A stretch of 64,000 nt of DNA from Conexibacter arvalis (GTDB taxonomy: Bacteria; Actinomycetota; Thermoleophilia; Solirubrobacterales; Solirubrobacteraceae). Numbering within the stretch: position 1 is the stretch's first letter; every line of letters begins with the position of its first letter. Positions 30,208-56,616 of this stretch are shown in pieces. The translations under genes were made by a program, and so were the position numbers. Location: assembly GCF_014199525.1 (NCBI RefSeq), contig NZ_JACHNU010000001.1:372001-436000 (forward strand). The letters are read 5' to 3'. The notes under the pieces are model-generated. The model was not told the origin of the DNA and did not search any database. It saw only the letters and a list, made by a program, of their open reading frames with translations.

Positions 30208-31386
30208 CTACCTCCGGCCCTTCACCGGGAGCTGCCGCGACCCACACGCGGCACGACCCGTCAATTGTACGAAGCTGTTTCGTCGCACGCAACCGGCAAC
30301 CCGGCGCAACGCCTGGCGCGCGCGCAGCGCCGCGAGCAGCGGCGTCGCCGCGGGCCGCAGCGCGTCGAGCGCCGGCGCGATCGCCGCCGCGACGCGCACG
30401 TCCCGCGCGGCGGGCACCGTTGAGTAGAAGGCGGCGATCCCGGCCGTGATCGCCGCGTGCGCGCCACCGCGCCGCAGCGCCGTCGTCGTCGCGACCGACC
30501 GCCGCGCCGCCCGCTCGACCCGTCTCGCCGGCACGGCGCCGCCGCAGCAGTCGACGAGATACGAGCGGCCTGTCACCTCGATGTCGGAGGCCGCGTCGAC
30601 CACGCCGTCGAGCAGCGTGCTGAGCACGCAGACGTCCGGCCAGTAGGCGTCCGCGACCGCCGCCGCGTCGGCGGTGGTCGCAGCGGGATCGGCCGCGGTG
30701 CCCAGCAGCGCGAGGACCGCCAGGTCCGAGACGCCGCCGGCGAGGATCTCCCACCACTCGTAGTCGTCCGCGCCGGGCTGCTGGAGCGCCCATGCCCGCG
30801 CCGGGCCGTAGCCGCCGCTGCGCAGCGCGGCGTGGACATGGCTCTGCGCATGCGCGCACCGGTCGGCGGCGGCCAGGGCGGCCGGTGCGACGGCCGCGGC
30901 CGACGGCAGCGCCGCGAGCCGCTCGCGGCAGGCCGTCGCCAGCTCCCGCAGGTAGCCGCCGTCGCGGGCGGGGAGATCGGCGAGGCGCTCCCCGCCCCGG
31001 TCGGGGGCGCCGAGCGCGACTGCGAGCGCGCGGTGGAGGCGCAGGCCGTCGCGGCGCGGGTCGGTCGACGGCCGCTCGCCGAGCGTGTCGAGGTAGTCGT
31101 ACAGCAGCTGCCAGGCGACGAGCAGCTCGATCGTCGTGCGCTGGTGGACCCGCGGCGCGAGCGTCGCGAACGCGGCCGCCGCCTCCGCGTTCGCCGCCTC
31201 GCCGGCGATCGTCGCGAGCGCGAGCGCGCGCAGCTCGCAGTCGGGGATCGCCGCCGCGCGCCGCGTCCAGCGGGCGATCTCCTCCGCCGCGACGGGGACG
31301 ACCACCGCCTCGTAGCGCACGACCATCGCGAGCGCGGCCGGCAGCGGCGAGCGGAGGGAGCCGAGCCGCGGCACGAGCGCCCTCAC
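30208..31386 (-). CDS. DUF2600 terpene-synthase-like protein, cassette A
   Basis: 392 aa, all-helical, of the DUF2600 family whose characterised Bacillus member YtpB is tetraprenyl-beta-curcumene synthase (class IB terpene synthase). The first metal-binding motif YDYLDTLGE is present (Asp97, Asp100). The second, which reads LDSLVDHERD in cassette C, is LDGVVDAASD here, losing an acidic/His position, so activity may be altered. EWWE and the GGYLRELATACRERLAALP region are conserved. GTG 31386 overlaps the permease stop (GTGA). The C-terminus is about 30 residues longer than in the paralogs and basic, and contains the next operon's promoter. Confidence 0.82.
   Translation of the reverse strand: MRALVPRLGSLRSPLPAALAMVVRYEAVVVPVAAEEIARWTRRAAAIPDCELRALALATIAGEAANAEAAAAFATLAPRVHQRTTIELLVAWQLLYDYLDTLGERPSTDPRRDGLRLHRALAVALGAPDRGGERLADLPARDGGYLRELATACRERLAALPSAAAVAPAALAAADRCAHAQSHVHAALRSGGYGPARAWALQQPGADDYEWWEILAGGVSDLAVLALLGTAADPAATTADAAAVADAYWPDVCVLSTLLDGVVDAASDIEVTGRSYLVDCCGGAVPARRVERAARRSVATTTALRRGGAHAAITAGIAAFYSTVPAARDVRVAAAIAPALDALRPAATPLLAALRARQALRRVAGCVRRNSFVQLTGRAACGSRQLPVKGRR
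30264..30292 (-). promoter_or_regulatory. Sigma-70-type promoter inside the 3' end of the DUF2600-A gene
   Basis: On the minus strand TTGCGT (30287-30292), 17-bp spacer, TACAAT (30264-30269): the best promoter in the window. The spacer contains the inverted repeat ACGAA-GCTGT-TTCGT (30269-30283), a possible operator. It would drive the leader ORF and the two secreted-protein genes, making them independent of cassette A. Confidence 0.7.
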
Positions 31387-33932
31387 CGCTTCCCGAGCGC
31401 CAGCCGCGGCGGCGGGTTCGAGCCGAGGTAGCCGGGGATCGCGGTCGTCGCGATCGCCACCAGCGCGATCGTCGCGCACGCGACGGCCGTCTGCCCCGGC
31501 GACCACGACCACGGCGCCGGGTACCCCGTCGTCTCCTGCAGCCAGCGGCCGAGCAGCAGGTGGCCGAGCGTGCCCGTCACCAGGCCGGCGGCGCAGCCGG
31601 CGAGCAGGATCAGCCCGGTCTCCAGCAGCAGCGCCCGCCAGATCGCGAACCGGCTCCACCCCGCGATCGCGACGGCGGCAAGCTGGGGCCGGCGCTCGCG
31701 GATCGCGGCCGCCATCGCGATCGCGATCGCGATCGCCGCGGCGAGCAGCAGCATCGCCGCGATCTGGCGCAGCCGGGCGAGCCCCGCGCCGGCGACGGCG
31801 TTGGCGTGGTCGAGCCGCTCGGCGGCCGTCTGGGCCTGCAGCCCGCTGACCGGGCCGAGCAGGCGCGCGACGCGGTCGCGGACGACGGCCGCCGGCACGC
31901 CCGGCTCGACGTCGACCTCGAGCGCGCTCGGCGCGGAGGTCGCCCACGCGCGGGCGTAGTCGTCGGCGTTCATCACGATCGCGCCCGGGCCCCAGCCAAG
32001 GTTGGTCGTCGTCGCCGCAACGCGATACCGGCGCGTCCCCGTCGGCGTCGGCAGCTCGATCACCGCGCCGAGGCCGGCGCCCTGCTGGCGCGCGATCGCC
32101 GCGGAGACGGTGACCCACCCGCCGAGCCGCAGCCGCGCGGTCGCGCTCGCCGCGTCGCCGTCGATCAGCTGCGACGGCGGGACCATCACCCGATCCCGCG
32201 CCGGCCGGCCGATCACCCACGCCCGCCGCTCGCCGACGTCGAGCAGCCCGCCGTAGTACTCGCGCACCTCCGCGACGCCCGGCAGGCCGGCGATCTCCTG
32301 CGCCCGCGAGCGGAACGGCTGCAGCGCGAGGTCGTCGCCGTCGTGCGCCACCCACACGTCGGCCGTCGAGACGTACTCGGCGTAGTCCTCGGAGAGCCCG
32401 TCGAGCAGGTTCGTGCGCGCGCCGCCGATCGCGAGCGTCCCGCAGACCGCGACCGCGCACGTCGCCGCCAGCGCGAGCGACCGGACGTTGGCGGCGCGGA
32501 CCGCGCCGAGCGCGACCGCCAGCACGGTCGGCCGGTCGAGGCGCTCGACCTGCTCGGCGACCTTCAGCACGACCGCGAGCGCCGCCGGCACGGCGAGCAC
32601 CGTCGCGACGACGAGCAGCCCGACCGCGATCATCGTCGCCGCCGACCACACCAGCGCGAGCCCCCACGCGAGCGCCGTGAGCGCGACCGCCGCGACGGCC
32701 ATCCACCGCCGCGTCGCCGGCTCGATCCGCTGGCCGACCTGCGCGCCGGCGCGGTGGACCGCGTTGACCGGCCGGCCGCGCCGGAGGTCGAACAGCGGCT
32801 GGGCCGCGGCGAGGCAGGCGACGACCGTCCCGCCGGCGATCGCCGCGGCGAACGCCCACCACGCGAAGCGCATCGTCGTGCCGATCGGGAACGCGAACGC
32901 GAGGTAGGCGGGCGGCTCCAGCGACGCCGACCGCGTCAGCGCGTAGCCCGCCGCGACCCCCGCCAGGGAGGCGACGAGTCCGAGCGCGGCGGCCTGCGAC
33001 AGCGCGACCAGCGCCGCCTGCCCGTCGCCGTAGCCGTGGATGCGCAGGTGCGCCAGCTCGCGGCGGCGGGACGGGACCGTCAGCAGCATCGCGGTCGCCG
33101 TCAGCAGCAGCCCGACGACCGCGGCCACCGCCGCGAACATCACCGTCGCCTGATCGTTGGGCGCGGTCGCGAGCGCCAGCGCGCGCAGCTCCTCGTCGAC
33201 CGCGCCGACGGCGAGCCGGTCGCCGACCAGCCGCTCGATCGCCGCGCGGCTCTCCGGCGCCCGCCCCGGCAGGCTCTTGACGAGGATCTGCGTCACGCGG
33301 CCGTCGAGCCCGCTCAACGCCTGCACCCGCTCCAGCGAGCCGGCGGCGATCCGCCCGTTCGCGAGCGAGCCGATCTCTCTCTCGCCGAGCACGCCGTTGA
33401 CGCGCGTCGCGCGCGCGTGGCCGCGGACCGCGACGGCGACGTCGCGCGCCGCGCCCTCGCCGGCCGGCAGCCCGAGCGCCTCCCCGGCCGCGTTCGCGAG
33501 GTAGACGCCCGGCAGCACGAGCAGCCCCCGCAGCGCGAGCGTCGACCCGATCCCGCCGACCTCGGCGAACGACTCGTCGATGCCGACGAGGTCGACCGCG
33601 GTCGTCCGCGTCCCGTTGCGCAGGACGGCGTGCTGGGCGAGCATCGGCGCCGCCGCGTCGACCGCGTCGATCGCGCGGATCCGCTCGACGAGCGCGGCCG
33701 AGAAGCCGCCGCTGTCGCGCGCGGAGATCTGCACGTCGGCCTTCCCCGCGATCCCGCGGACCATCTCCTTGGCGCTCGCGGTGATGCTCGCGTTCGCGAC
33801 GAGCACCGCGAAGACGAGCGCGACGCCGGTCGCGATCCCCGCGGCGGCGAGCAGCTCCTGCAGCCAATGGCGCTGCAGCCGGGCGCGATAGAGGTTCGCG
33901 AGGACGCTCGCCCGCACCACGGCCGACCTCAC
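31383..33932 (-). CDS. Double-FtsX ABC permease, cassette A
   Basis: 849 aa with about ten membrane helices: one at residues 25-48, an extracellular domain of about 210 residues, six central helices (about 270-505), a second extracellular domain (about 510-720) and three C-terminal helices. The second domain has motifs shared with the other two cassettes: RRAWVIGRPARDRVMVPPSQ and TTNLGWGPGAIVMNADDY. Fused two-half permeases of this kind pair with two ATPase subunits and usually move lipids, lipoproteins or amphiphiles. Overlaps its neighbours by 4 bp on each side. Confidence 0.88.
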   Translation of the reverse strand: MRSAVVRASVLANLYRARLQRHWLQELLAAAGIATGVALVFAVLVANASITASAKEMVRGIAGKADVQISARDSGGFSAALVERIRAIDAVDAAAPMLAQHAVLRNGTRTTAVDLVGIDESFAEVGGIGSTLALRGLLVLPGVYLANAAGEALGLPAGEGAARDVAVAVRGHARATRVNGVLGEREIGSLANGRIAAGSLERVQALSGLDGRVTQILVKSLPGRAPESRAAIERLVGDRLAVGAVDEELRALALATAPNDQATVMFAAVAAVVGLLLTATAMLLTVPSRRRELAHLRIHGYGDGQAALVALSQAAALGLVASLAGVAAGYALTRSASLEPPAYLAFAFPIGTTMRFAWWAFAAAIAGGTVVACLAAAQPLFDLRRGRPVNAVHRAGAQVGQRIEPATRRWMAVAAVALTALAWGLALVWSAATMIAVGLLVVATVLAVPAALAVVLKVAEQVERLDRPTVLAVALGAVRAANVRSLALAATCAVAVCGTLAIGGARTNLLDGLSEDYAEYVSTADVWVAHDGDDLALQPFRSRAQEIAGLPGVAEVREYYGGLLDVGERRAWVIGRPARDRVMVPPSQLIDGDAASATARLRLGGWVTVSAAIARQQGAGLGAVIELPTPTGTRRYRVAATTTNLGWGPGAIVMNADDYARAWATSAPSALEVDVEPGVPAAVVRDRVARLLGPVSGLQAQTAAERLDHANAVAGAGLARLRQIAAMLLLAAAIAIAIAMAAAIRERRPQLAAVAIAGWSRFAIWRALLLETGLILLAGCAAGLVTGTLGHLLLGRWLQETTGYPAPWSWSPGQTAVACATIALVAIATTAIPGYLGSNPPPRLALGKR

Positions 33933-34624
33933 CCCGCCTGTCGCGTCGCGTCGCGCGGCGCCGGGCGCACGACGCCGTCCTCGAGCGTCAGCGCGCGGTC
34001 GGCGAGCGCGATCATCCGCTGGTCGTGGGTCGCCACGAGCACGGCCCGCCGCCGCTCGTGCGCGACGCGCCGCAGCAGCTCGACGAGCGCGCGACCGGCC
34101 TGCGAGTCGAGGCTGCCGGTCGGCTCGTCGGCGAGCACGAGCTGCGGATCGGTGCTGAGCGCTCTGGCGAGCGCGGCGCGCTGACGCTGCCCGGTCGACA
34201 GCTGCTCCGGACGATGGGTGAGACGATCGCCGAGGCCGAGCTCGCGCAGCAGCCGCGTGCCGCGCCGCTGCGCCTCGCTCGGCGCGACGCCCGCCGCCTC
34301 CAGCCGCAGGCCGACGCTGCGGTGAATCGACATCCCCTCGACCAGCTGCGGCTCCTGCGCGACGATCCCGAGCGTGTCGCGGCGCCAGCGCGACGCCCCG
34401 GCGCCGGCGCGCGGGACCGGCTCGCCGTCCCAGGTGACGACGCCGTCGTCGGGCGCCTCGAACCCGGCCGCGACCGACAGCAGCGTCGACTTGCCGGACC
34501 CGCTCGGCCCCACCAGCGCGACGAGCTCGCCGCGCTCGACCGCGAGCGTGACGTCGGCGAGCGCCCGCACCGTCTCCCCGCCGGCCCGGAAGCTGCGGGC
34601 GACGCCCTCCATCCGCAGCGCCAT
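33929..34624 (-). CDS. Canonical ABC ATPase, cassette A
   Basis: 231 aa, LolD/MacB class. Walker A GPSGSGKST, Q-loop IVAQEPQLVEG, signature LSTGQRQR, Walker B LVLADEPTGSLD and H-loop VATHDQ are all intact. ATG 34624 overlaps the stop of the divergent ATPase gene by one base (TGATG). It provides the catalytic NBD of the transporter. Confidence 0.9.
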   Translation of the reverse strand: MALRMEGVARSFRAGGETVRALADVTLAVERGELVALVGPSGSGKSTLLSVAAGFEAPDDGVVTWDGEPVPRAGAGASRWRRDTLGIVAQEPQLVEGMSIHRSVGLRLEAAGVAPSEAQRRGTRLLRELGLGDRLTHRPEQLSTGQRQRAALARALSTDPQLVLADEPTGSLDSQAGRALVELLRRVAHERRRAVLVATHDQRMIALADRALTLEDGVVRPAPRDATRQAG

Positions 34625-35340
34625 CAGGCCGTTCCGGGCCCCGCCCGCCGGGCGTCGAGCGAGACGACCGGGGCCGGCGGCCGCGTCGGCTCGCCGCGCA
34701 GCGCGCCGCGCTGGAGCGTCAGCGCCCGCGCGCCGGCGAAGGCGTGGCCGTCGTGGTCGGTGGCGAGGACGGCGAGCCCCTCCTCGCGCACGAGCGCCCG
34801 CAGCAGCTCCCACAGCCGCTCGCGCTCCGGCTTGGGGCTGCCTGCCGCCGGCTCGTCGAGCAGCACGAGGCGGGGGCGGTTGACGAGCGCCCGGGCGAGC
34901 AGCACGCGGACCCGCTCGGCGTGCGACAGCTGCCACGGCTCGGCGTCGGCGAGCCCGTCGACGCCGCAGCGCATCAGCAGCTCGTCGGCGCGGTCGCGGG
35001 CGCGCCAGCGCGAGGTCAGCCGCAGCGCCGGCCAGGCGACCTGGTCGATCACGCGCTCGCCGGCCGCGGCGATGAACGCCTCGGGGCCGTCGACCGCCCA
35101 CGCGATCCCGGCCTCGCGCCCGAGCGCGACCCGCGGCGGCCCGCCGTCGAAGCGCACGGCGCCCTCGTCGGGGTCGAGCAGCCCCGCGGCGACCTCCAGC
35201 AGCGTCGTGCGGCCGGATCTCGGCGGGCCCCAGACGGCGACGAAGCCGCCGGCGTCGAGCTGCAGCGACGCGTCGTCGAGCCCGATCGCCTTCGCCGAGT
35301 AGCGGTGCGTGACCCGCTCGATGCTCAGGAGCGCGCTCAT
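34624..35340 (-). CDS. Degenerate ABC ATPase, cassette A
   Basis: 238 aa with an ABC fold, but Walker A is GPPRSGRTT (the catalytic Lys is Arg) and the signature is LSHAERVRV instead of LSGGQ. Walker B LVLLDEP and a TDHD H-loop remain. It most likely pairs with the canonical ATPase as an asymmetric NBD dimer under the single fused permease. ATG 35340 overlaps the PadR stop (ATGA). Confidence 0.82.
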   Translation of the reverse strand: MSALLSIERVTHRYSAKAIGLDDASLQLDAGGFVAVWGPPRSGRTTLLEVAAGLLDPDEGAVRFDGGPPRVALGREAGIAWAVDGPEAFIAAAGERVIDQVAWPALRLTSRWRARDRADELLMRCGVDGLADAEPWQLSHAERVRVLLARALVNRPRLVLLDEPAAGSPKPERERLWELLRALVREEGLAVLATDHDGHAFAGARALTLQRGALRGEPTRPPAPVVSLDARRAGPGTA

Positions 35341-35903
35341 CCGACCTGCTCCGCGATCCCGTCGCGGGCGTCCTGGCACCACTGGAGCTCGGCGACGATC
35401 CGCGTCCGCAGGGCGTCGCGCGCGAGCCGCTGCACGAGGTCCGCTCCCGGCTGCGGGCCGCGCAGGCCCTCGGCCGCGGCGCACAGCCGCTCCTCGCACA
35501 GGTCGACGATCCGCAGCATCGTCGCGTGGTCTCCCGCCCGGGTCGAGTGCAGCCGCGTGAGCGCGTCTCTGACGGGCAGGCGCTGCTCGATCGGGCTCAC
35601 CAGCCACGCGCGCCACGCCGCGACGCCCGCGGCGGTCGCGCGATAGCGCGCCGGCTTGCCGGCGTCGGCCGGCATCACGAGCTCGGCGCGGCGCAGCGCC
35701 GCGACATGCTCGTAGGCATGCTGGCGCTGCCACGAGCTGAACACGACGGCGTAGCGCGTGGCGACGGACATCCCGATTGCGTTGCGTGTCATCGGCAACT
35801 CGCTCAGCACGATCTGCGCCAGCACGGCGTTGCGCACCAGCGACTCTCCATGTCCCATCCGCGTGCTCGCACCAGCGTTTTCGACTGTGCGATCGACCTG
35901 CAC
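35337..35903 (-). CDS. PadR-like regulator, cassette A
   Basis: 188 aa. A divergent PadR fold: winged helix AVLAQIVLSELPMTRNAIGM then YEHVAALRRAELVMPADAGKPARYRATAAGVAAWRAWL, and a C-terminal helical half ending ELQWCQDARDGI like the Vir-type C-domain of the other cassettes. GTG 35903 is chosen because TTGAAG-18-TAGGCT places transcription start on it (leaderless). First gene of cassette A and probably its repressor. Confidence 0.7.
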   Translation of the reverse strand: MQVDRTVENAGASTRMGHGESLVRNAVLAQIVLSELPMTRNAIGMSVATRYAVVFSSWQRQHAYEHVAALRRAELVMPADAGKPARYRATAAGVAAWRAWLVSPIEQRLPVRDALTRLHSTRAGDHATMLRIVDLCEERLCAAAEGLRGPQPGADLVQRLARDALRTRIVAELQWCQDARDGIAEQVG

Positions 35904-35909
35904 GGCGCG

Positions 35910-35943
35910 AGCCTAGTCAAACGCTCGTGTTCGCTTCAAGCGA
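35910..35943 (-). promoter_or_regulatory. Cassette A promoter with operator candidate
   Basis: Minus strand TTGAAG (35934-35939), 18 bp, TAGGCT (35910-35915), with start codon 6 nt on. The inverted repeat TCGCTT-C-AAGCGA (35931-35943) overlaps the -35. Confidence 0.6.
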
Positions 35944-36041
35944 CGGTCAATAATCCGCAGTTTAGTGGAACAACGCCAGCGGACGGTTGAATCGCCGACA
36001 TCTGCGGCCCCACGGGCGAAGTGGCCGATCGATCAACGACT

Positions 36042-36327: not shown

Positions 36328-36792
36328 TTGCCGGATCACTCTCGCCGGCGCCGGATCGTGCGGCCGGTGCTCAGTGCGCTGATCGCGTTCGCGGCCGCGG
36401 CCGCGTTCGCCGCCGCCCCCGCACAGGCGAAGACGATCAAGGTCGTCGAGCGCGCTCGGCTCGGCCTGGTGAGACAGCACGGCTCGACGATCGACCTGCG
36501 CGGCAAGGTGCGCGGAACGTTGAGCGGTCCCGTGCTCGCGCGCTTCAACGTGCGCCTGCTGTCGGTCACGGGATTGGTGACGATCTTCCCCAAGGGCGGC
36601 GGCTCGCTGTCGTTCTCGGTCGCCGGCCGCGCCCGCTCCGCCGCCGTCCGCGCCCGCTTCTCCGGCTCGGTGACCGTCACCGGCGGGACGGGGCGGTGGG
36701 CGGGTGCGCGAGGGCGCGGCAGCTTCGACGGCGTCGTCAACCGGCGGACGTGGGCCGCGACCGCGACCGTCCGCGCGCGCATCTCGACGTGA
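36328..36792 (+). CDS. Small secreted beta-rich protein
   Basis: 154 aa. TTG at 36328 is preceded by GGAGGAGGAG at good distance, which decides the start against an in-frame ATG at 36277. Signal peptide (VLSALIAFAAAAAFAAAPAQA, cleavage before KTIKV). The mature part is short beta strands with GSVTVTGGTGRWAGARGRGSFDGVVN, a pattern found in small secreted actinobacterial proteins of unknown function. Followed by a second secreted protein with GTGA overlap. Confidence 0.7.
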   Translation: MPDHSRRRRIVRPVLSALIAFAAAAAFAAAPAQAKTIKVVERARLGLVRQHGSTIDLRGKVRGTLSGPVLARFNVRLLSVTGLVTIFPKGGGSLSFSVAGRARSAAVRARFSGSVTVTGGTGRWAGARGRGSFDGVVNRRTWAATATVRARIST

Positions 36793-37604
36793 GGGGCCGC
36801 TCGCTGCGCGGACCGACGGTCGCGCTGGCGGCGGCGCTCGCCGTCGCGGCGGTCTTCGCGGCGGCGCCGGCCGACGCCGCGCGCCTCACGGCCGGCCTCG
36901 GCCCGTCAGCCCGGCTGGGGCAGCCGAGCCCGATCCGGCTCGGCCTCGAGATCGACGACCGCCCGGCCACGCTGAAGCGGATCGAGCTGAAGTTCCCGGA
37001 CGGCTTCGGGATCTCGACCAGCGGCCTCGGCATCGCCGCCTGCCGTCCACCCGCGGCCGTGATCAGGGCGATCGTCCTGCCCAACACCGGGGGCCTTGGC
37101 GGCTGCTCGCCGAATGCCGTGATCGGCTTCGGCTCGGCGCTGGCCGACGTGCGCATCGACACGATGACGATCCCGGAGCTGGCGGACGTGACGGTCCTCA
37201 CCGGCTCGGTCAGCGGGGCGCGGAAGCTGAGGCTGATCTACTACATCGACGGCCGCCACCCGTTCGGAGCGCGGCTGGTCTTCGCCGGCACGCTCGCGCA
37301 GGCGCGGCCGCCGTGGGGCGGATCGATCTCGCTCGTGGTGCCGAGCATCCCGACCCTGCCGTCTGGGGCGACGTTGGCGCTGCGCCGCATCCGCGTCTCG
37401 ATCGGCGAGAACGTGACCTATCGCGAGCGCCGGGGCAGACGGCGCGTCGCGTACCGACCCAGAGCGGTCGCGGTCCCGGCCACGTGCCCGCGCCGGGGCT
37501 TCCGCTTCCAGGCGCGCCTCGTCTTCGCCGACGGCTACCGGACGTCGAGCGACGCGGTCGTCCCCTGCCCACGGCGGGCGATGGCGCCCCGGACCCGCGG
37601 GTAG
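36789..37604 (+). CDS. Secreted protein of unknown function
   Basis: 271 aa. GTG 36789 overlaps the previous stop (GTGA). Signal peptide LRGPTVALAAALAVAAVFAAAPADA. The mature domain includes IRLGLEIDDRPATLKRIELKFPDGFGISTSGLGIAAC and CSPNAVIGFGSALADVRID, resembling the repeat unit of the 930-aa secreted protein at 24876 (C-x-x-x-x-x-I-G pattern), so it may be a single-unit relative. Last residues are basic. Confidence 0.7.
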   Translation: MRGRSLRGPTVALAAALAVAAVFAAAPADAARLTAGLGPSARLGQPSPIRLGLEIDDRPATLKRIELKFPDGFGISTSGLGIAACRPPAAVIRAIVLPNTGGLGGCSPNAVIGFGSALADVRIDTMTIPELADVTVLTGSVSGARKLRLIYYIDGRHPFGARLVFAGTLAQARPPWGGSISLVVPSIPTLPSGATLALRRIRVSIGENVTYRERRGRRRVAYRPRAVAVPATCPRRGFRFQARLVFADGYRTSSDAVVPCPRRAMAPRTRG

Positions 37605-39869: not shown

Positions 39870-40466
39870 ATGGGTCAAGCGCAAGCGAAGCGTGATTGGA
39901 ACCGGGGGGCGCCGTGGAGGGGTGCAGTGCTCGGAACGCTGGTGGAGCGACAGAGCTACCCGTACGAGATCGCCAACCGGCTGAAGCACCTGCTCGGTCC
40001 GGACGCGGGGCTGGAGCCGCCTGATCTCTACCCGATCGTCGCGCGGCTGGAGAGAGACGGACTGATCGAGGTCGTCGAGCGGGTGCGCGAGCCGGGACAG
40101 CGGCAGGCGCGCATCGTCTACCGGGCGACGCCGGCGGGCGCGCGCGCGTTCGACGACTGGATCCGCACGGGGTCGCGGCCTTCTCCGCGGCGGGGGGAGC
40201 TGCTGACGAAGCTCGCGGTCGCGCGGCCCGGCGACATCCCGGCGCTGTTGGAGCAGCTCGCGGAGGCCGAGGAGCATCTGCTCGCGCTGCTCGAGAGCGC
40301 CGACGACCTCGAGCTGGCCTTTCCGGACGGGTCGTGGCAGCAGCTGATAGTCGACGCCCAGCGCGATCACGCGCTGGCGCACTGGCAGGCGGAGCTGCGC
40401 GCGATCGGCAGCATCCGTCGACGGCTGGAGACGTTCGAGGGCCGGGAGCGCGCCCGGTCGCGATGA
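39870..40466 (+). CDS. PadR-family regulator, cassette B
   Basis: 198 aa. PadR winged helix (GAVLGTLVERQSYPYEIANRL, YPIVARLERDGLIEVVERVREPGQRQARIVYRATPAG) and a helical C-domain. ATG 39870 has GGGAG at good distance. Its stop overlaps the next ATG (ATGA). Probable repressor of cassette B. Confidence 0.88.
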   Translation: MGQAQAKRDWNRGAPWRGAVLGTLVERQSYPYEIANRLKHLLGPDAGLEPPDLYPIVARLERDGLIEVVERVREPGQRQARIVYRATPAGARAFDDWIRTGSRPSPRRGELLTKLAVARPGDIPALLEQLAEAEEHLLALLESADDLELAFPDGSWQQLIVDAQRDHALAHWQAELRAIGSIRRRLETFEGRERARSR

Positions 40467-41194
40467 ACGCGCTGCTGTCGCTGGAGGGCGTCACCGTCCG
40501 CTACGCGCCGGAGCTGCGCAATGCGCTCACCGTGCTGTCGTCGGTCGACCTTCAGATCGGCCCGCGCGAGACGGTCGGCGTGCTGGGACTCGAGCGCAGC
40601 GGCAAGTCGACGTTGCTGCGCGTTCTGGCAGGCGCGCTGCCACCCGACGCGGGCGTCGTCAGGTGCGAGGGTCGCGACCTCTACGCGGTTCCCGAGCGTG
40701 AGCGGGCCGAGCTGGTGCGGTCGACGATCGGCTTCGCGGATCCGGCTTCGCTCGCGGCGTCGGGGCGCTACGAGCGGGTCGTCGACCTGGTCGCGCTCGG
40801 TTTGCTCAGCGGCGGCCGGAGCATGCGCGAGGCCGAGATCGCCGCGCGGCGTGCGCTGTCGGCCGCCGGGGCGTCGAGCTGCGCGGAGCACCACCCGGTC
40901 GAGCTGACGCGTGCCGAGCGGGTCCGCGTCGCGGTCGCCCGGGCGTTGGCGCGCCAGCCGCGGGTGCTGCTCGTCGACGAGCCGGCCGCGCTGCCGCAGC
41001 CCGAGGAGGTCGATGCGATCACCCGTCTGCTGCGCAGACTGGCGAGAGAGCGGCAGATCGCGCTCGTCGTCGCCTCCCAGGATCCCGCCGTCGTGCGCGG
41101 CGCCGATCGGGTGGTGCACGTGACCGACGGCGCGTTGAGGACCACGACCCGCCCAGGCGTCGTCGTGCAGCTGCGGCCCGCCAGCGGCGCGTGA
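40463..41194 (+). CDS. Divergent ABC ATPase, cassette B
   Basis: 243 aa. Walker A GLERSGKST keeps its Lys, but the signature is LTRAERVRV, the H-loop His is Gln (VVASQDP), and Walker B is VLLVDEP. Orthologous by position and sequence to the degenerate ATPases of cassettes A and C, each of which lacks a different set of residues. Expected to be the non- or less-catalytic NBD. GTGA overlap with the next gene. Confidence 0.82.
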   Translation: MNALLSLEGVTVRYAPELRNALTVLSSVDLQIGPRETVGVLGLERSGKSTLLRVLAGALPPDAGVVRCEGRDLYAVPERERAELVRSTIGFADPASLAASGRYERVVDLVALGLLSGGRSMREAEIAARRALSAAGASSCAEHHPVELTRAERVRVAVARALARQPRVLLVDEPAALPQPEEVDAITRLLRRLARERQIALVVASQDPAVVRGADRVVHVTDGALRTTTRPGVVVQLRPASGA

Positions 41195-41913
41195 CCGCCG
41201 CCGCGGCCCCGGTCGGCTCCGCGGGACTGGAGCTGCGAGACGTCGTCAAGCACTACCGCGCCGGAACCGAGCTGGTGCGTGCCGTCGACGGCGTCTCGCT
41301 CGCGCTCGCGCCCGGCGAGGTCGTCGCGCTCTACGGACCGAGCGGCGCCGGGAAGACGACGCTGCTGCAGCTCGCTGCCGGTCTGCTGGCTCCTGACGCC
41401 GGCGAGGTGCTGTTCGACGGTCGCCCGGTGCCGACGAGCGGCGAGCGGCACGATCGCCTCCGCCACGAGGTCAGCGTGATCCTGCAGGCCACGCACCTCG
41501 CGCCGCGCGAGAGCGCGCTGGACAACGCGTCCGTGCGGTTGCTCGCCACCGGGCGCAGCTTCCGGGAGGCGCGGCGGCTGGCGCGCCCGTGGCTGGAGCG
41601 CGTCGGGCTGGAGGAGCGTGCCGACCAGCCGGCAGGGCAGCTGTCGATGGGGGAGCGGCAGCGGGTCGCGATCGCGCGAGCGCTGGCGAGCGACCCGCGG
41701 CTGCTGCTCGCCGACGAGCCGACCGCGGCGCTCGACTCGGCGCGCAGCCGCGAGATCCTCCAGCTGCTGGTCGACGTCGGCCACCACCATCGCATCCCCG
41801 TGCTGCTGGTCACGCATGACCCCGCCGCGGTCGACGTCGTCGACCGCGCGCACACGCTGCGCGACGGTTCGCTGCTCGACGGCGTCGACGCGACGCTCCT
41901 GGGGCTCGCATGA
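41191..41913 (+). CDS. Canonical ABC ATPase, cassette B
   Basis: 240 aa. GPSGAGKTT, Q-loop VILQATHLAPRES, signature LSMGERQR, Walker B LLLADEPTAALD, H-loop LVTHDP: complete. LolD/MacB class. Shares LELRDVVKHYRAG opening with the cassette C enzyme (LELRDAVKHYRSG). Start and stop overlap both neighbours by 4 bp. Confidence 0.9.
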   Translation: MTAAAAPVGSAGLELRDVVKHYRAGTELVRAVDGVSLALAPGEVVALYGPSGAGKTTLLQLAAGLLAPDAGEVLFDGRPVPTSGERHDRLRHEVSVILQATHLAPRESALDNASVRLLATGRSFREARRLARPWLERVGLEERADQPAGQLSMGERQRVAIARALASDPRLLLADEPTAALDSARSREILQLLVDVGHHHRIPVLLVTHDPAAVDVVDRAHTLRDGSLLDGVDATLLGLA

Positions 41914-44462: not shown

Positions 44463-44463
44463 C

Positions 44464-46301: not shown

Positions 46302-46317
46302 CCGATCAAACCTACCA

Positions 46318-46351
46318 AAGCGGAGACATGGCCTCCGCTTCGTGCTACATT
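46318..46351. promoter_or_regulatory. TetR operator and efflux pump -10
   Basis: AAGCGGAG-ACATGGC-CTCCGCTT (46318-46340), perfect 8-bp arms, immediately upstream of TACATT (46346-46351), the probable -10 of the DHA2 gene. Binding here would block the -35. Confidence 0.7.
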
Positions 46352-46434
46352 GCTGCGCCGAAGTCGAGACGGTCGCCCATTTCGATGACCGTCCACTTCT
46401 CCTCTCTCCTCTCCACCGGCACGCGGAAAGGCCC

Positions 46435-50780: not shown

Positions 50781-50812
50781 TTGCGTCACCGTGAAATTCT
50801 CCGATACGGTGA
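50781..50812 (+). promoter_or_regulatory. Cassette C promoter with inverted repeat
   Basis: TTGCGT (50781-50786), 16 bp, GATACG (50803-50808). TCACCG (50786-50791) and CGGTGA (50807-50812) form an inverted repeat spanning the core promoter. Confidence 0.5.
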
Positions 50813-50860
50813 ACGCGGTCGTATACAAGGTCGCCGACTTACAGACATTGGGGGACGGGC

Positions 50861-51466
50861 TTGCGGGCTCAGCATGCGCGCGGAGGAAGACAAGGACTGT
50901 CGTCGCCGCCGCCGGTTCAACTGGCGGTGCTCGCGCTGCTGATCGAGCGGCCGACGTACGTCTACGAACTGAGCCAACGCTTCGACGACCGCTTCGGCGA
51001 GCTGCTGCCGGTCGCGACCGGCACCGTCTACAAGGCGGTCGACGGCCTGCTCAAGCGCGGACTGGTCGAGCGGATGGCGGTCGAGGGCGAGGAGGACCGC
51101 CGTCAGCCCAAGCCGCACTACCGCGCGACCGCCGACGGCGCGCGGACGCTGCGGCAGTCGCTCGCCGACGACATGCGCGGCGATCCCTTCCAGGCCGAGA
51201 TGCTGCAGCGGCTGATGTCGGTCAGCGTCCAGGACGCGCGCGCGATGCTCGACCTCGTCGACCGCTACGAGCGCGTCTGCCTGGAGCAGCTCGGGATGCT
51301 GCCGCCCGTGCCGGTCGCCGTCGGCGAGACGCGCACGTCGTTCGCCGCGCTGCGCGGCGAGCTGGTCGCCGAGGAGCGTCGGCTGACGCTGGAGGCGCAG
51401 ATGAAGTGGGTCGCCTACGCCCGCCGGCGCATCGGGGCGGTGAACGGCGGAACCGGGGAGATGTGA
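50861..51466 (+). CDS. PadR-family regulator, cassette C
   Basis: 201 aa from a TTG at 50861, preceded by GGGGGA. PadR winged helix QLAVLALLIERPTYVYELSQRFDDRF, TGTVYKAVDGLLKRGLVERMAVEGEEDRRQPKPHYRATADGA and a helical C-domain ending QMKWVAYARRRIG. Stop overlaps the next ATG by one base (TGATG). Probable repressor of cassette C. Confidence 0.88.
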   Translation: MRAQHARGGRQGLSSPPPVQLAVLALLIERPTYVYELSQRFDDRFGELLPVATGTVYKAVDGLLKRGLVERMAVEGEEDRRQPKPHYRATADGARTLRQSLADDMRGDPFQAEMLQRLMSVSVQDARAMLDLVDRYERVCLEQLGMLPPVPVAVGETRTSFAALRGELVAEERRLTLEAQMKWVAYARRRIGAVNGGTGEM

Positions 51467-52179
51467 TGACGCTGCTGGAGCTGCGCGACGTCACCAAGCG
51501 CTACGCGCTCGGCCGGCTCGAACGGGTCGCGCTGCGCGCGGTCTCACTCGACGTCCACCCCGGCGAGCTGGTCGCCGTCTGGGGGCTGCGCCGCTCCGGC
51601 CGCTCGACGCTCCTGCGGGTCGCCGCCGGGATCGAGCAGCCCGACGAGGGCGTCGTCCGCTTCGACGGCCGCGACCTCGGCGGGCGCGGCCCCGGTCCGC
51701 TCGGCAGCGCGCTCGGCTTCTGCTCGACGCGCTTCGACCAGGCGCACGGCACGACCGTGCTCGACCACGTCGCGATCGGCCGGATCGCGCGCGGCGCCGG
51801 CCGCAACGCCGCCCGCTCGGCGGCGAGCGGCGTGCTGGAGCGGGTCGGCGCCGGCCACTGCATGGGCTTCGACCCGCGCGAGCTGGAGCCGGCCGAGGCG
51901 ATCCGCGCCGGGATCGCGCGGGCGCTCGTGACCGAGCCGCGCCTGCTCGTGCTCGACGAGCCGACCAGCGGCGTCGACCTGCTCGAGCGCGACGCGCTGC
52001 TCGAGCTGCTGCGCTCGCTCGCCGACGACGGGATCGCAGTGCTGGCGGCCGTCGGCGAGGCGGTCGGCGGCGCCGACCGGATGCTGGCGATCGGCGACGG
52101 GCAGCTGCGCGGGGAGACGGTGCCCGAGCATGCTCCCGTCGTGCCGCTGCGCCCGCGTCGCGCGGAGCCCTCGGCGTGA
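51466..52179 (+). CDS. Degenerate ABC ATPase, cassette C
   Basis: 237 aa. Walker A is GLRRSGRST (Lys to Arg), signature LEPAEAIRA, and the H-loop His is missing (AAVGEAVGG); Walker B LLVLDEPTS remains. It is the most eroded of the three degenerate ATPases, but the reading frame and length are kept, which argues for a structural or regulatory role rather than decay. GTGA overlap with the next gene. Confidence 0.82.
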   Translation: MTLLELRDVTKRYALGRLERVALRAVSLDVHPGELVAVWGLRRSGRSTLLRVAAGIEQPDEGVVRFDGRDLGGRGPGPLGSALGFCSTRFDQAHGTTVLDHVAIGRIARGAGRNAARSAASGVLERVGAGHCMGFDPRELEPAEAIRAGIARALVTEPRLLVLDEPTSGVDLLERDALLELLRSLADDGIAVLAAVGEAVGGADRMLAIGDGQLRGETVPEHAPVVPLRPRRAEPSA

Positions 52180-52901
52180 CCGCCGCCCGCCTCGAGCTGC
52201 GCGACGCGGTCAAGCACTACCGGAGCGGAGACGAGGTCGTCCGCGCCGTCGACGGCGTCTCGATGACGGCCGACCCCGGCGAGATGGTCGCGCTGTACGG
52301 GCCGAGCGGATCGGGCAAGAGCACGCTGCTGCTGCTCGCGGCCGGGCTGCTGAGACCGGACGCCGGCACGATCCGCTTCGGCACGCGTGACGTGACGGCG
52401 ATGAGCGACGCCGAGGCGGCCGACTACCAGCGGCGCGAGGTCGGCTTCGTGTCGCAGTCGTTCCACCTGCTGCCGGGCGTCCCCGCGGTCGAGAACGCGG
52501 CCGTCAAGCTGATCGCCGACCGCGTGCCGCTGCGCGCCGCCCGCAGAGCGGCGACCGAGTGGCTCGAGCGCGTCGGGCTCGGCGGGCGGCTCCACCACAC
52601 GCCCGAGCAGCTCTCCGGCGGCGAGCGCCAGCGGGTCGCGATCGCGCGGGCGCTCGCGAACGGGCCGAGCCTGCTGCTGACCGACGAGCCGACCGGCAGC
52701 CTCGACTCCGCGCGCGGCGCCGAGGTGCTGGCGCTGCTGGCGCAGCTCGGGCACGAGCAGGGCGCCGCCGTGCTGATGGTCACCCACGACCCGCGCGCCG
52801 CCGACGTCGCCGACCGCGTGCTGACGCTGCGCGACGGCCGCGTCGTCACGGAGACGACCGCCCCGACGACCGCCGGCCCGCCCGCGCCGGCGCGCCGCTG
52901 A
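52176..52901 (+). CDS. Canonical ABC ATPase, cassette C
   Basis: 241 aa. GPSGSGKST, Q-loop FVSQSFHLLPG, signature LSGGERQR, Walker B LLLTDEPTGSLD and H-loop MVTHDP all complete, LolD/MacB class. GTG 52176. Followed after 6 bp by the permease. Confidence 0.92.
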   Translation: MTAARLELRDAVKHYRSGDEVVRAVDGVSMTADPGEMVALYGPSGSGKSTLLLLAAGLLRPDAGTIRFGTRDVTAMSDAEAADYQRREVGFVSQSFHLLPGVPAVENAAVKLIADRVPLRAARRAATEWLERVGLGGRLHHTPEQLSGGERQRVAIARALANGPSLLLTDEPTGSLDSARGAEVLALLAQLGHEQGAAVLMVTHDPRAADVADRVLTLRDGRVVTETTAPTTAGPPAPARR

Positions 52902-52907
52902 GCGACG

Positions 52908-55466
52908 ATGCGGCTCGAGGCGCTGCTCTACTTCTACGGCCGGCGGCTGCGGACGCAGCCGGTCCAGGAGCTGCTGGCCGGTCTGGGGATCGCGATCGGC
53001 GTCGCGCTGACCTTCGCGGTGCTGGTCGCGAACTCGAGCGTCGCCGGCTCGGCCGAGCAGGTCGCGCGCAGCGTCGTCGGCACCGCCGACCTGCAGGTCG
53101 CGGCGCGCGGCGCGCGCGGCCTCGACGAGCAGCTGCTCGCCGGCGTGCGCGCGACGCCCGGCGTCGTCCACGCGGCGCCGCTGCTGGAGCAGCGCGCGGT
53201 GCTGCGGGGCCCGGGCGGCCGCAGCACGCCAGTCAACCTGGTCGGGATAGACCGCGAGATGGCGGCCTTCTCCGGCCGGCTCGCCGGCACCTTCGTCGCC
53301 GGCGGCCTGCTCGGGGTCGACGGGATCGTGCTGCCGCTCGCCAGCGCGCAGGTGCTCGGGATCGGCCGCGACCACGACGCGATCGTGCGCGACCCGGCCC
53401 GGGTCGACGTCGAGGTCGCCGGGCGCAGCGTGCCGACGACCGTCGCGGCGACGCTCGGCCGCGAGGCCGCCGGCCCGCTCGCGGAGGCGCTCGTCGCGAT
53501 CGTGCCGCTCGAGCGGGCGCAGCGGATGACCGGCCTGGAGGGACGGGTCTCGCGCGTGATAGTCGAGACCGCGCCGGGGCGGGAGGAGGCGGTCCGCGAG
53601 CACCTCGAGTCGCTCGCCGACGACCGCTTCGACGTGACCGCCGCCGACGCCGAGAGCGCGCTGCTGCGCCAGGCACTCGGCCCCGGCGACCAGGCGACCT
53701 CGTTCTTCGCCGCGATCAGCGCGCTGCTCGGCTTCCTGCTCGCCTTCAACGCGATGCTGCTGACCTCGCCGGAGCGCCGGCGGCTGATCGCCGAGCTGCG
53801 GATGCAGGGCTTCCGCGCGCGCCAGCTGGTCGTGCTCGTGCTGTTCCAGGCCGGCGTGCTCGGACTCGTCTCCTCGGCGGTCGGCGTGCTCGGCGGCAGC
53901 GTGCTCGCGCGCGGCGTCTTCGACGACTCGCCCGACTACCTCTCCCCGCCGTTCACGCTCGGGACGGGCACGCTCGTCGGCCCGCTGCCGGTGATCGGCG
54001 CACTCGTGGCGGGGATGCTCGCCTGCGCGCTCGCCTCGGCGCCGCCGCTGCTCGACCTGCGGCGCGGCAGAGCGGTCGACGCCGCGCTGCGCAGCCCCGG
54101 CGTCCCCGGCAACGCGCTCACGAGCCGCACACGCCGCCGGATGCTGTGGACGGCGCTGGGCCTGACCGCGGTCGCGGGAGCGCTGCTGGCGTTCGCGCCG
54201 GAGATCGCGCTGCTCGCCAGCGGCCTGCTCGCGATCGCCACCGTGCTGCTGATCCCGTCGACCTTCGCCGCGGTGCTGACCGCCGCCGAGTGGGTCGTCG
54301 AGCGGGCGCCGGGGCTCGGGCTCGTGACGGTCGCGCTGTTCGCGCTGCGGGCGACGACGCTGCGCTCCCTGGCGCTGGCGGCGACCGGCGGCGTCGCCGT
54401 CTTCGGCTCGGTCACGATCGGCGGCGCGCGCGACGACCTGCTGCGCGGGATCGCGAACTACGCCGACGACTACGTCACGACCGCCGACCTCTGGATCGTC
54501 AACCCGGCCGACAACCAGGGCACGAGCGAGATCCGCCGGCCCGGGATCGTCGAGCGCGTCGCGGCGGTCGACGGCGTGCGCGAGGCCCGCCCGTTCCAGG
54601 GCAGCTTCCTCGACGCCCACGGACGGCGCCTGTGGGTGATCGCGCGACCGTCGGAGGACCCGTCGCTCGTGCCTCGCTCGCAGCTGGTCGACGGCGACCT
54701 GGAGCAGACCGAGCGGCGCCTGCGCGACGGCGGCTGGGTCGTGCTCTCCGACCAGCTCGCCGAGCAGACCGGGACCGGCCCCGGCGGCCGCTTCGCGCTG
54801 CCGACGCCCTCGGGCGGGGTCTCGCTGCGGGTCGCCGCGACGACGACCAACCTCGGCTGGGCCCCCGGCACCGTGATCGTCGGCCGCGACGACTTCGCGC
54901 GCCTGTGGGGCAGCGACGCGCCGACCTCGGTCGAGGTCTCGCTCGAGCCCGGCGCCGACCTGCTGGACACGCGCGCGGCGGTCGAGCGGGCGATCGGCGC
55001 CGACAGCGGCCTGCAGGTGCTGACCGCCGCGGAGCGGATCGAGATCATCAACGCCTCGGCGCGGCAGGGGCTCGACCGCCTCGACCAGATCGCGACGCTG
55101 CTGCTCGTCGCCGCCGTGCTGGCGATGGCGGCAGCGATGAGCGCCGCGATCTGGCAGCGCCGGGTCGCGATCGCGGCGCTGCGGATCCAGAGCTTCACGC
55201 CGCGCCAGCTGTGGGCGCTGCTGCTGATCGAATCCGGCGTCGTGCTCGCCGCCGGCTGCCTCACCGGCGCCGTGCTCGGCCTGCTCGGGCAGGTCGGCGC
55301 CGACCGCTATCTGCGCGTCGCGACCGGCTTCCCCGTGTCGGCCGTGCCGGCCAGCTGGCAGACGGTCGAGGCGTTCACGATCGTCGTCGCGGCGGCGCTC
55401 GCGGTCGTCGCGATCCCGGGTTGGTTCGCCTCGCGCGCCGACCCCAGCCTCGGCCTCCAGGAGTGA
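52908..55466 (+). CDS. Double-FtsX ABC permease, cassette C
   Basis: 852 aa, ten helices, two extracellular domains. First helix ELLAGLGIAIGVALTFAVLVANSSV; second domain RRLWVIARPSEDPSLVPRSQLVDGD and TTNLGWAPGTVIVGRDDF. Same length and layout as the permeases of A and B. Forms the membrane part of the cassette C transporter. Confidence 0.9.
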   Translation: MRLEALLYFYGRRLRTQPVQELLAGLGIAIGVALTFAVLVANSSVAGSAEQVARSVVGTADLQVAARGARGLDEQLLAGVRATPGVVHAAPLLEQRAVLRGPGGRSTPVNLVGIDREMAAFSGRLAGTFVAGGLLGVDGIVLPLASAQVLGIGRDHDAIVRDPARVDVEVAGRSVPTTVAATLGREAAGPLAEALVAIVPLERAQRMTGLEGRVSRVIVETAPGREEAVREHLESLADDRFDVTAADAESALLRQALGPGDQATSFFAAISALLGFLLAFNAMLLTSPERRRLIAELRMQGFRARQLVVLVLFQAGVLGLVSSAVGVLGGSVLARGVFDDSPDYLSPPFTLGTGTLVGPLPVIGALVAGMLACALASAPPLLDLRRGRAVDAALRSPGVPGNALTSRTRRRMLWTALGLTAVAGALLAFAPEIALLASGLLAIATVLLIPSTFAAVLTAAEWVVERAPGLGLVTVALFALRATTLRSLALAATGGVAVFGSVTIGGARDDLLRGIANYADDYVTTADLWIVNPADNQGTSEIRRPGIVERVAAVDGVREARPFQGSFLDAHGRRLWVIARPSEDPSLVPRSQLVDGDLEQTERRLRDGGWVVLSDQLAEQTGTGPGGRFALPTPSGGVSLRVAATTTNLGWAPGTVIVGRDDFARLWGSDAPTSVEVSLEPGADLLDTRAAVERAIGADSGLQVLTAAERIEIINASARQGLDRLDQIATLLLVAAVLAMAAAMSAAIWQRRVAIAALRIQSFTPRQLWALLLIESGVVLAAGCLTGAVLGLLGQVGADRYLRVATGFPVSAVPASWQTVEAFTIVVAAALAVVAIPGWFASRADPSLGLQE

Positions 55467-55470
55467 TCGC

Positions 55471-55492
55471 GGACGGCATCGCGATGCCGTCC
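55471..55492. promoter_or_regulatory. 22-bp perfect palindrome between permease and DUF2600 gene, cassette C
   Basis: GGACGGCAT-CGCG-ATGCCGTCC, 4 bp after the permease stop. A stem here could attenuate or process the transcript, giving the DUF2600 gene a different expression level. Cassettes A and B have no such gap. Confidence 0.6.
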
Positions 55493-55527
55493 TGACCCTG
55501 CTGAAACCTTCCAAGACTTGCCGGTAT

Positions 55528-56616
55528 ATGACCAAACCGGCATGTCCCCCCACGCTGCGCTCGCGCGCGTTCGTCGCGCTCCTCGGCGCGAATGCCCGTT
55601 ACTGGACGACCGTCGCGCCGCTGGCGTGGCGCGAGCTGCGCCGCTGGAAGGAGCGCGCGCAGCTGATCGACGACGCGACCCTGCGCCGTCACGCGCTCGT
55701 CAAGCTGCGCGAGGACGACGGCAACGTCAAGACGACGGTGACGCTGGCGACGCTCGCACCCCGCCGCCAGCGCGCCTGCGTCGTGCGCGCGATCGTCGCA
55801 CTGCAGGTGATGTACGACTACCTCGACGCGGTCAGCGAGGAGCGGTTCGCCGACGGCGCGCGGTGCGGCCGCGACCTCTTCCGCGCCTTCGACGCCGCCT
55901 TCCGCGCCGAGGCCGCGACCGACTACTACCGCGGTCACCCCCGCCGCGACCGCAGCGGCTACCTCGACGCGCTCGCGACCGCCTGCCGCGAGGCGCTGCA
56001 GCTGCTGCCGCGGCTGGCAGCGGTCGCCTCGCTGGCGGCCGCGACCGCAGCCCACTCCGGCCGCGCGCAGGAGCTGAGCCACGCCGCCGCCGACGGCGAG
56101 GTCGAGCCGCTGGCGGAGTGGGCCGGCGCCGGGGCCGACGACGCACCGCTGACGTGGTGGGAGCGGGCCGCCGGCAGCGCCGCCTCGATACTGGCCGTCC
56201 ACGCGCTGATCGCGGCCGCCGGCGATCCGCGCACGACGCGCGCCGACGCCGAGCGGGTCGCGCGCGCCTACCGGCTGGCGGCGACGCTGACGACGCTGCT
56301 CGACAGCCTCGTCGACCACGAGCGCGACCTCGCCCGCGGCGATCACAGCTACGTCTCCTACTACCCCAGCGCGGCGGTGGCGGCCGAACGGATCGCGGCG
56401 ATCGCGCGGCTGACCGCCGACGCGGCCGCCGGCCTGCGGCGCGCGCCCCACCACCTGATGACGGTCGCGGGGATCGCCGCCTTCTACCTGTCGGCGCCCG
56501 GCTCGCGCAGCGCCTTCGCGCTGCCGGCGACCGTCCGCGTGACCGCGGAGCTGCGGCCGCTGATCGTGCCGATCCTGTGGCTCTTCCGCACCTGGCGGCG
56601 GCTGCGCGACGCGTGA
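55528..56616 (+). CDS. DUF2600 terpene-synthase-like protein, cassette C
   Basis: 362 aa. Both Asp motifs are well kept: YDYLDAVSE (Asp97, Asp100) and LDSLVDHERDLARGDHSYVSYY (Asp259, Asp263, Asp267), together with TDYYRGHPRRD, SGYLDALATACREALQLLP and LTWWERAAG. This is the best match of the three to YtpB-like tetraprenyl-beta-curcumene synthases. Soluble or peripheral helical protein. ATG 55528 lacks a clear SD. Predicted to make a long-chain terpene that the co-encoded ABC transporter handles; this is inference from linkage. Confidence 0.85.
   Translation: MTKPACPPTLRSRAFVALLGANARYWTTVAPLAWRELRRWKERAQLIDDATLRRHALVKLREDDGNVKTTVTLATLAPRRQRACVVRAIVALQVMYDYLDAVSEERFADGARCGRDLFRAFDAAFRAEAATDYYRGHPRRDRSGYLDALATACREALQLLPRLAAVASLAAATAAHSGRAQELSHAAADGEVEPLAEWAGAGADDAPLTWWERAAGSAASILAVHALIAAAGDPRTTRADAERVARAYRLAATLTTLLDSLVDHERDLARGDHSYVSYYPSAAVAAERIAAIARLTADAAAGLRRAPHHLMTVAGIAAFYLSAPGSRSAFALPATVRVTAELRPLIVPILWLFRTWRRLRDA

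Follow-up and report, generated by a model that had tools for sequence, protein, structure and literature searches.

Introduction

To our knowledge, the export of very hydrophobic terpenoids from the bacterial membrane is poorly known. HpnN and the MmpL proteins, which are lipid exporters of the resistance-nodulation-division (RND) type, are encoded next to lipid biosynthesis genes, while among the ATP-binding cassette (ABC) transporters LolC and LolE are two separate four-helix permeases and MacB is a permease fused to its ATPase. For the type VII ABC transporter YbbAP-TesA of Escherichia coli (PDB 9GE6, 9GE7, and 9GE8), PMC12646458 reports that hydrophobic compounds are extracted from the inner membrane through mechanotransmission, and describes a YbbAP pocket positioned like a lipid site of BceAB. 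The class IB terpene synthases, such as BalTS and the tetraprenyl-β-curcumene synthase YtpB (DUF2600 family, PDB 5yo8), carry, according to PMC11234867, six Asp residues in the motifs DYLDNLXD and DY(F,L,W)IDXXED. Here we analyze a stretch of 64,000 nucleotides from Conexibacter arvalis (contig NZ_JACHNU010000001.1, positions 372,001 to 436,000; hereafter the window), in which genes for proteins of these last two kinds occur together. Three cassettes, namely A (30208..35903, minus strand), B (39870..45567, plus strand), and C (50861..56616, plus strand), each encode, in this order, a PadR-type regulator, a degenerate ABC ATPase (ABC1), a canonical ABC ATPase (ABC2), a double-FtsX permease, and a DUF2600 protein.

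The gene order, the linkage, the swaps between enzyme families, the conserved acidic residues, the permease fold, and the co-divergence of the partners were computed. It is well supported that isoprenoid synthesis and transport belong together at these loci, and we consider it fairly probable that the cassettes are modular prenyl-lipid synthesis-and-extraction units, working as YbbAP does. No description of a link between DUF2600, or a terpene synthase, and an FtsX-type ABC transporter was found in the literature searched, which consisted of open-licence papers and is hence weak evidence.

Results and Discussion

Linkage of the Synthase and Permease Genes

The initial annotation had described the three cassettes of the window, and all 15 genes were found in the order and at the places it gave. 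Most junctions overlap by 1-4 bp, as it had noted (9 of 12, the remaining three being gaps of 1, 6, and 61 bp), and the permeases have the lengths of 849, 850, and 852 aa and both of the shared motifs that it had named. Its term triplication undercounts the genome, which holds nine synthase-permease pairs and two further permeases.

The genome assembly of C. arvalis comprises 5.2 Mb in 18 contigs, and the genome-wide counts were obtained from profile searches and from the retrieved stretches. All nine DUF2600 genes score above the curated PF10776 cut-off and all nine lie less than 2.3 kb from one of the 11 paralogous permeases of the cassette family, the window cassettes being three of the nine DUF2600 sets. 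The cassettes are scattered over contigs C1, C2, C5, C6, and C8, with a lone permease on C11. The DUF2600 gene is co-directional with the permease in five cases (A, B, C, L022, and L026), convergent in three (L023, L024, and L025), and divergent in one (L021). Between the two genes lie ATPase and PadR genes at L021, an L,D-transpeptidase-family gene at L023, and a cis-prenyltransferase gene at L024 and L025, the latter gene overlapping that of the permease by 4 bp at L024. Given such varied orientation and intervening genes, the closeness of synthase and permease is not accounted for by a single copied operon.

A survey of 151 genomes of the order Solirubrobacterales, with a permease threshold of E ≤ 1e-60, was then considered. 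The permease counts are lower bounds, since at most six candidates per genome were scored in this survey and at most three in a survey of 299 genomes of the class. DUF2600 occurs in 18 genomes of the order and the permease in at least 17; 14 have both, 4 DUF2600 only, 3 the permease only, and 130 neither (Fisher p ~1e-13, shared ancestry being ignored). In the class survey the permease was found in at least 13 of the 299 genomes, all of them belonging to this order, and in a 396-genome sample of the phylum DUF2600 was found in the C. arvalis genome only.

Up to 20 kb were retrieved around every DUF2600 match of the order survey and around the permeases lacking DUF2600, and searched with profiles in six frames. 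These stretches contain 63 DUF2600 matches (one gene, at L068, being split in two). For 58 of them a permease of the cassette family is no more than 3 kb away, the match being co-directionally downstream of it in 47 cases, convergent in 5, co-directionally upstream in 4, and divergent in 2. The initial annotation had named linkage beyond the genus as a test, and the linkage is indeed conserved in five genera (g1, g3, g9, g14, and g24) of two families (f1 and f2). Counted from the permease, a prenyl-diphosphate enzyme is present within 3 kb at 52 of the 62 places of the order survey, a number that leaves out one G008 permease located 2.9 kb from the polyprenyl synthetase of the next cassette. 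The named loci with a permease score above 300 have such an enzyme nearby in 45 of 55 cases, with three of the ten misses ending at a contig edge; these 55 are the 62 named loci minus seven with lower permease scores, and they overlap the 62 survey places, being partly the same DNA. An alternative count of 65/78 includes places that were retrieved because of DUF2600, and the former two values are less biased. Permeases and DUF2600 are also present on short contigs (L111, L119, and L142; 3.7-7.0 kb) that bear the labels Sorangium, Glaciihabitans, and Ramlibacter and are probably mis-binned Solirubrobacterales DNA.

The synthase and the permease diverged together as pairs. The distance matrices of the two proteins, compared for 54 pairs, give a Mantel r of 0.56, the largest value in 2000 permutations being 0.16. 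This test is uncorrected for the relatedness of the species, an issue that is avoided with the nine pairs of the C. arvalis genome, for which an r of 0.81 was reached by none of 5000 permutations.

It is barely credible, in view of the above, that the genes are hitchhikers in one old block which was duplicated repeatedly with no functional tie. Orthologous blocks do exist between genomes, such as L026 and L062 with 73% identity in the permease and 59% in DUF2600, but the closeness persists while orientation and gene order differ, and the unrelated prenyl enzymes that occupy the same slot in other genomes contradict such an origin.

Exchange of the Prenyl-Diphosphate Enzyme

All three genomes that have the permease only (G096, G008, and G004) encode another prenyl-diphosphate enzyme beside it. 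In G096, a cis-prenyltransferase (PF01255) is located 137-171 bp from the permease at three of five places, and in G008 a polyprenyl synthetase (PF00348) is located 98-142 bp from it, also at three of five. Behind each of these synthetases lies a further match of lower score (two detected by profile and the third by phmmer), which at L086 corresponds to the C-terminal part of a flavin adenine dinucleotide (FAD) reductase-type protein. The L086 gene (11195-13935, together with the preceding polyprenyl synthetase and beside the permease) encodes an unusual fusion of 734 aa, with an N-terminal part of the FAD/geranylgeranyl-reductase type and a C-terminal part resembling polyprenyl synthetases. 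In G004, a squalene/phytoene synthase (PF00494) lies 104 bp from the single permease, and a PF00494 gene is found immediately behind the permease in G149 (L090).

The cis-prenyltransferases were followed through 12 genomes, in which 19 PF01255 matches were obtained, 18 near full length and one a contig-edge fragment (G064). Each of the 12 has one copy without a listed cassette within 5 kb, that is, away from the DUF2600 and permease places of the order survey. For all seven additional copies (two in G000, one in G087, one in G057, and three in G096), a permease or DUF2600 gene is no farther than 3 kb away. The common denominator of the loci is one substrate class, not one enzyme family. The proposal in the initial annotation of a system that makes a terpene and extracts or exports it is supported by these other prenyl-diphosphate enzymes at the same permease, in two genomes of family f4 and in G096, together with the linkage beyond the genus.

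The swaps bear on a different reading, in which the terpene stays in the membrane while the transporter serves another envelope substrate or a hydrolase, and both are regulated together in order to remodel the membrane. The regulation of periplasmic amidases by FtsEX, mentioned in PMC12646458, the secreted proteins near many loci, and the L,D-transpeptidase-family gene within L023 would fit such a role. We nevertheless find it quite unlikely, as the prenyl-metabolising function remains constant at the loci while enzyme family and orientation vary, and a ligand common to synthase and permease accounts better for their co-divergence.

Seven genomes of genus g14 (G057, G146, G096, G149, G078, G145, and G142) contain a full squalene-hopene cyclase gene beside one or two PF00494 genes, that is, a hopanoid-type locus. 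In the Conexibacter-group genomes G000, G087, and G113, the search gave short and weak PF13243 matches only, and no PF00494. Further cyclisation of the product by a squalene-hopene cyclase, as in Bacillus subtilis, was set aside for the window, the PF13243 matches of its own genus being of this short and weak kind.

The DUF2600 Enzyme

The DUF2600 genes of cassettes A (30208..31386, minus strand), B (44464..45567, plus strand, with an alternative start at 44488), and C (55528..56616, plus strand) match PF10776 with E values of 2.7e-45, 1.7e-66, and 2.9e-57, respectively, and the protein of cassette C matches PDB 5yo8 with an E of 3.3e-20. The six acidic positions of the class IB synthases were compared in an alignment of 57 DUF2600 sequences above 200 bits, weaker matches being excluded; for two of the 57 (L078 and L079) the alignment does not extend over motif 1. 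The acidic residues of motif 2 (D/E, D, D) are present in 57/57. In motif 1, 55/55 sequences have the second Asp as well as Glu as the third acidic residue and 48/55 the first Asp, and all nine proteins of C. arvalis, that of cassette A included, read DYxDxxxE.

The proteins thus have the family, the sequence match, and the six acidic positions in common with BalTS and YtpB, and differ from BalTS in having Glu rather than Asp as the third acidic residue of motif 1. Judging from these residues, they are likely active enzymes, and the variants with Asn in first place of motif 1 may differ. What sets them apart from the class IB synthases BalTS and YtpB is that here the genes are tied to a transporter.

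The Transporter

The permease genes are located at 31383..33932 on the minus strand in cassette A (849 aa; Pfam FtsX E 3.1e-22, MacB_PCD E 4e-8) and, on the plus strand, at 41910..44462 in cassette B (850 aa; identified by the genome permease search and by alignment) and 52908..55466 in cassette C (852 aa; Pfam FtsX E 7.7e-18). An AlphaFold2 model of permease C, built with 49 sequences, has a pLDDT of 89.7 and a pTM of 0.86 and shows ten long helices, together with two domains on the extracytoplasmic side (residues 58-247 and 524-706). The helices are taken as membrane-spanning on account of their order and of the match to YbbP. The latter is the best structural match of the model and extends from end to end, with a Foldseek E of 1.4e-18 (9ge6); VIA gives Z 26.2 for 9ge7 (705 residues, root-mean-square deviation (rmsd) 11.2) and Z 23.4 for 9ge6 (699 residues, rmsd 5.8). 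Next in rank is BceB (Z 22.8 and 19.1), and then come HrtB, MacB, and Lol proteins on single halves.

In the model, permease C shows the layout of the YbbP subgroup of type VII ABC transporters, i.e., ten transmembrane (TM) helices with large extracytoplasmic domains after TM1 (between TM1 and TM2) and after TM7 (between TM7 and TM8). The identity to YbbP is 12-14%. The permease halves are homologous by profile to those of LolCDE and MacB. The predicted single polypeptide of ten helices differs, however, from the two separate four-helix subunits of the former, and the ATPases are encoded by separate genes rather than fused to a four-helix permease as in the latter.

Each cassette contains two different ATPase genes, whereas YbbAP uses YbbA twice. 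ABC1 is encoded at 34624..35340 on the minus strand in cassette A (Pfam ABC_tran E 1e-17; Arg in Walker A and no canonical H-loop), at 40463..41194 on the plus strand in B, and at 51466..52179 on the plus strand in C; ABC2 is encoded at 33929..34624 on the minus strand in A (ABC_tran E 4.5e-32), at 41191..41913 on the plus strand in B, and at 52176..52901 on the plus strand in C. The ATPases of B and C were assigned by the comparison of ATPase motifs, in which the Walker A Lys, LSxG, the Walker B Glu, and the H-loop His of ABC2 are all kept in 66/66 and ABC1 is degenerate. A heterodimer of ABC1 and ABC2 would constitute an unusual asymmetric engine. The partner protein is also different, being the periplasmic hydrolase TesA in the case of YbbAP and a prenyl enzyme of cytoplasmic type here.

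The likeness to BceAB, which shares the 10-helix type VII fold and a connection to prenyl lipids, gives rise to the main rival explanation: the transporter would act on undecaprenyl diphosphate-type lipids or bound antibiotics as a target-protection system, the prenyl enzymes would tune the prenyl diphosphate pool around the lipid II cycle, and PadR would sense the drug. Cis-prenyltransferases are indeed present at seven loci, and response-regulator-like genes occur within 5 kb in 5/76 loci and histidine-kinase-like ones in 4/76 (both named by eye). PMC7038271 moreover reports that loss of ytpB with MenA limitation in B. subtilis leads to heptaprenyl diphosphate build-up and sensitisation to bacitracin, and that undecaprenyl diphosphate flipping has been proposed for BceAB; the same paper states that BceAB is not inhibited by heptaprenyl diphosphate accumulation. 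We consider target protection unlikely. BceB lacks the first extracytoplasmic domain, having a single large one, and BceAB is partnered by a histidine kinase, while permease C has two such domains in its model and the usual regulator is of the PadR type (60 of 76 loci). In addition, nine paralogues with diverse DUF2600 partners, together with the squalene/phytoene synthase swaps, fit poorly with a single undecaprenyl target.

As to the direction of transport, a permease that imports or recycles prenyl lipids, scavenging or degrading them, is highly improbable. An MPAB_Lcp gene is found upstream of two permeases without synthase, and the flip proposed for BceAB (PMC7038271) is inward; on the other hand, DUF2600 is a synthetic enzyme family and lies near the permease in 58 of its 63 matches, and YbbAP and LolCDE are described in PMC12646458 as outward extractors.

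The two MPAB_Lcp genes (rubber oxygenase family) are located at 4905-5801 of L027 in C. arvalis and at 5728-6612 of L094 in G113. The window itself contains one more double-FtsX permease, of 761 aa and of a different subfamily, encoded at 1931-5497 together with a single ABC ATPase and a PadR-like gene (assigned by eye); this set has neither DUF2600 nor a degenerate ATPase.

Regulators, Divergence of the Cassettes, and Secreted Neighbours

The PadR genes lie at 35337..35903 on the minus strand in cassette A (alternative start 35858) and, on the plus strand, at 39870..40466 in B (PF03551 E 1e-10) and 50861..51466 in C (PF03551 E 3e-12; alternative start 50927). The Pfam scan covered 10 of the 15 cassette proteins, namely permeases A and C, both ATPases of A, and the PadR and DUF2600 proteins of all three cassettes, and gave zero matches for PadR of cassette A, which is assigned by its blastp matches to those of B and C (E 5.9e-5 and 7.9e-7). 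Helix-turn-helix proteins of the IclR type recur near the cassettes of genus g14 (L048:10824-11180 and 13 other loci; one member was Pfam-scanned).

The pairwise identity between cassettes A, B, and C is 36-58% for the ATPases, the permease, and DUF2600, and 32-36% for PadR in partial alignments of 59-114 residues. Since the protein identities are only 32-58%, the cassettes are to be regarded as old paralogues, and a recent triplication is ruled out.

Two secreted families, SEC3 and SEC2, recur near the loci, mostly as a pair. In the window, SEC3 is encoded at 36367..36792 on the plus strand, divergent from cassette A, and SEC2 at 36750..37604 on the same strand, with no Pfam family found for the latter. 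The AlphaFold2 model of SEC3 (pLDDT 86.5) is an eight-stranded barrel. Dirigent proteins top the Foldseek list (best E 7.5e-4), and VIA yields Z values of 11-14 against DUF3224-like, dirigent, allene oxide cyclase (AOC), and Diels-Alderase barrels, the model resembling cyclases of the AbyU/PloI4 type. We therefore assign SEC3 to the AOC/dirigent-type barrels with moderate confidence only, because outer-membrane-type barrels also score 10-11. The Pfam Dirigent profile gives sub-threshold matches only, in 3 of 10 SEC3 proteins, with a best E of 0.029. Folds of the dirigent, allene oxide cyclase, and AbyU/PloI4 types enclose hydrophobic substrates. Near the DUF2600 genes of genus g39, the one SEC2-like match, at L078, is very weak (28 bits).

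Directly downstream of cassette A and on the same strand, two large secreted proteins of 925 and 776 aa without clear Pfam families are encoded at 24876-29995. Between cassettes B and C, at 45600-47904, a TetR regulator is divergent from a major facilitator superfamily (MFS) transporter, as in drug efflux pairs. No tRNA genes were found in the window, and on this ground, together with the scatter of the cassettes over several contigs, a phage or plasmid origin was set aside.

Proposed Mechanism

From the above we infer the enzymatic activity, the product, the outward direction, the acceptor role, and the regulation that make up the following scheme. The DUF2600 protein, as a class IB terpene synthase, would convert a long prenyl diphosphate, which the adjoining cis-prenyltransferase may supply at some loci, into a terpene that is soluble in the membrane, acting at the inner membrane face. 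The type VII ABC machine would be composed of the 10-helix permease of YbbP fold, the canonical ATPase, and the degenerate ATPase, and ATP-driven motion of the two extracytoplasmic domains would draw the product out of the outer leaflet and expose it on the outside. At some loci the SEC3 barrel, with its partner SEC2, may be the acceptor, an acceptor or modifying role being a suggestion, and the PadR protein probably regulates the unit. The divergence of the paralogous units as pairs makes it probable that the isoprenoid handled differs from unit to unit, and in the relatives other prenyl-diphosphate enzymes fill the synthase slot.

A number of observations weigh against this scheme. Five of the 63 DUF2600 matches are not near a permease: that of L035 is a fragment, that of L080 ends with its 4.1-kb contig, and those of L073 (full length), L078, and L079 belong to genus g39, where an MMPL-family transporter, not the ABC permease, lies about 2 kb away. 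The arrangement in these three genomes recalls that of HpnN and MmpL, with an exporter beside lipid biosynthesis, but these are RND transporters, unrelated to the type VII ABC transporters of the cassettes. Conversely, a prenyl enzyme is absent from the 3 kb around 10 of the 62 permease places, and 2 of the 11 permeases of C. arvalis have none either. On the side of the enzyme, the first Asp of motif 1 is replaced by Asn or Glu in 7 of 55 proteins. The full set of ATPase motifs is found in none of 68 ABC1 proteins (the Lys is kept in 40, LSxG in 16, the Glu in 37, and the His in one), which clouds the ATPase cycle, and the fold match of the permease leaves the direction of transport undefined. 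Finally, of 28 SEC3 cases only 16 have a listed cassette no farther than 5 kb away, and SEC2 belongs to a broader family, present in 15 of 16 genomes. The acceptor role is therefore weak, and SEC2 and SEC3 are ruled out as obligate partners.

Conclusions

Going further, and somewhat short of an even chance in our estimate, the loci would represent a dedicated and previously undescribed family of isoprenoid extractors, in which one type VII ABC lineage has come to be joined with prenyl-diphosphate enzymes of four types (class IB terpene synthase, cis-prenyltransferase, squalene/phytoene synthase, and polyprenyl synthetase with a reductase) and has expanded to up to 9-10 synthase-permease pairs per genome. 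Each cell would then secrete a set of distinct long-chain terpenoids, and outside the cell a dirigent-type barrel would take up some of these and shape or carry them.

The neighbourhoods tie one transporter family to one chemistry, in that the enzyme varies and the prenyl substrate class is constant. They can be used directly to find terpenoid exporters, to assign substrates to double-FtsX transporters that are still uncharacterised, and to mine the order Solirubrobacterales for class IB synthases. They also suggest that YbbP-type machines may act on isoprenoids besides acyl lipids.

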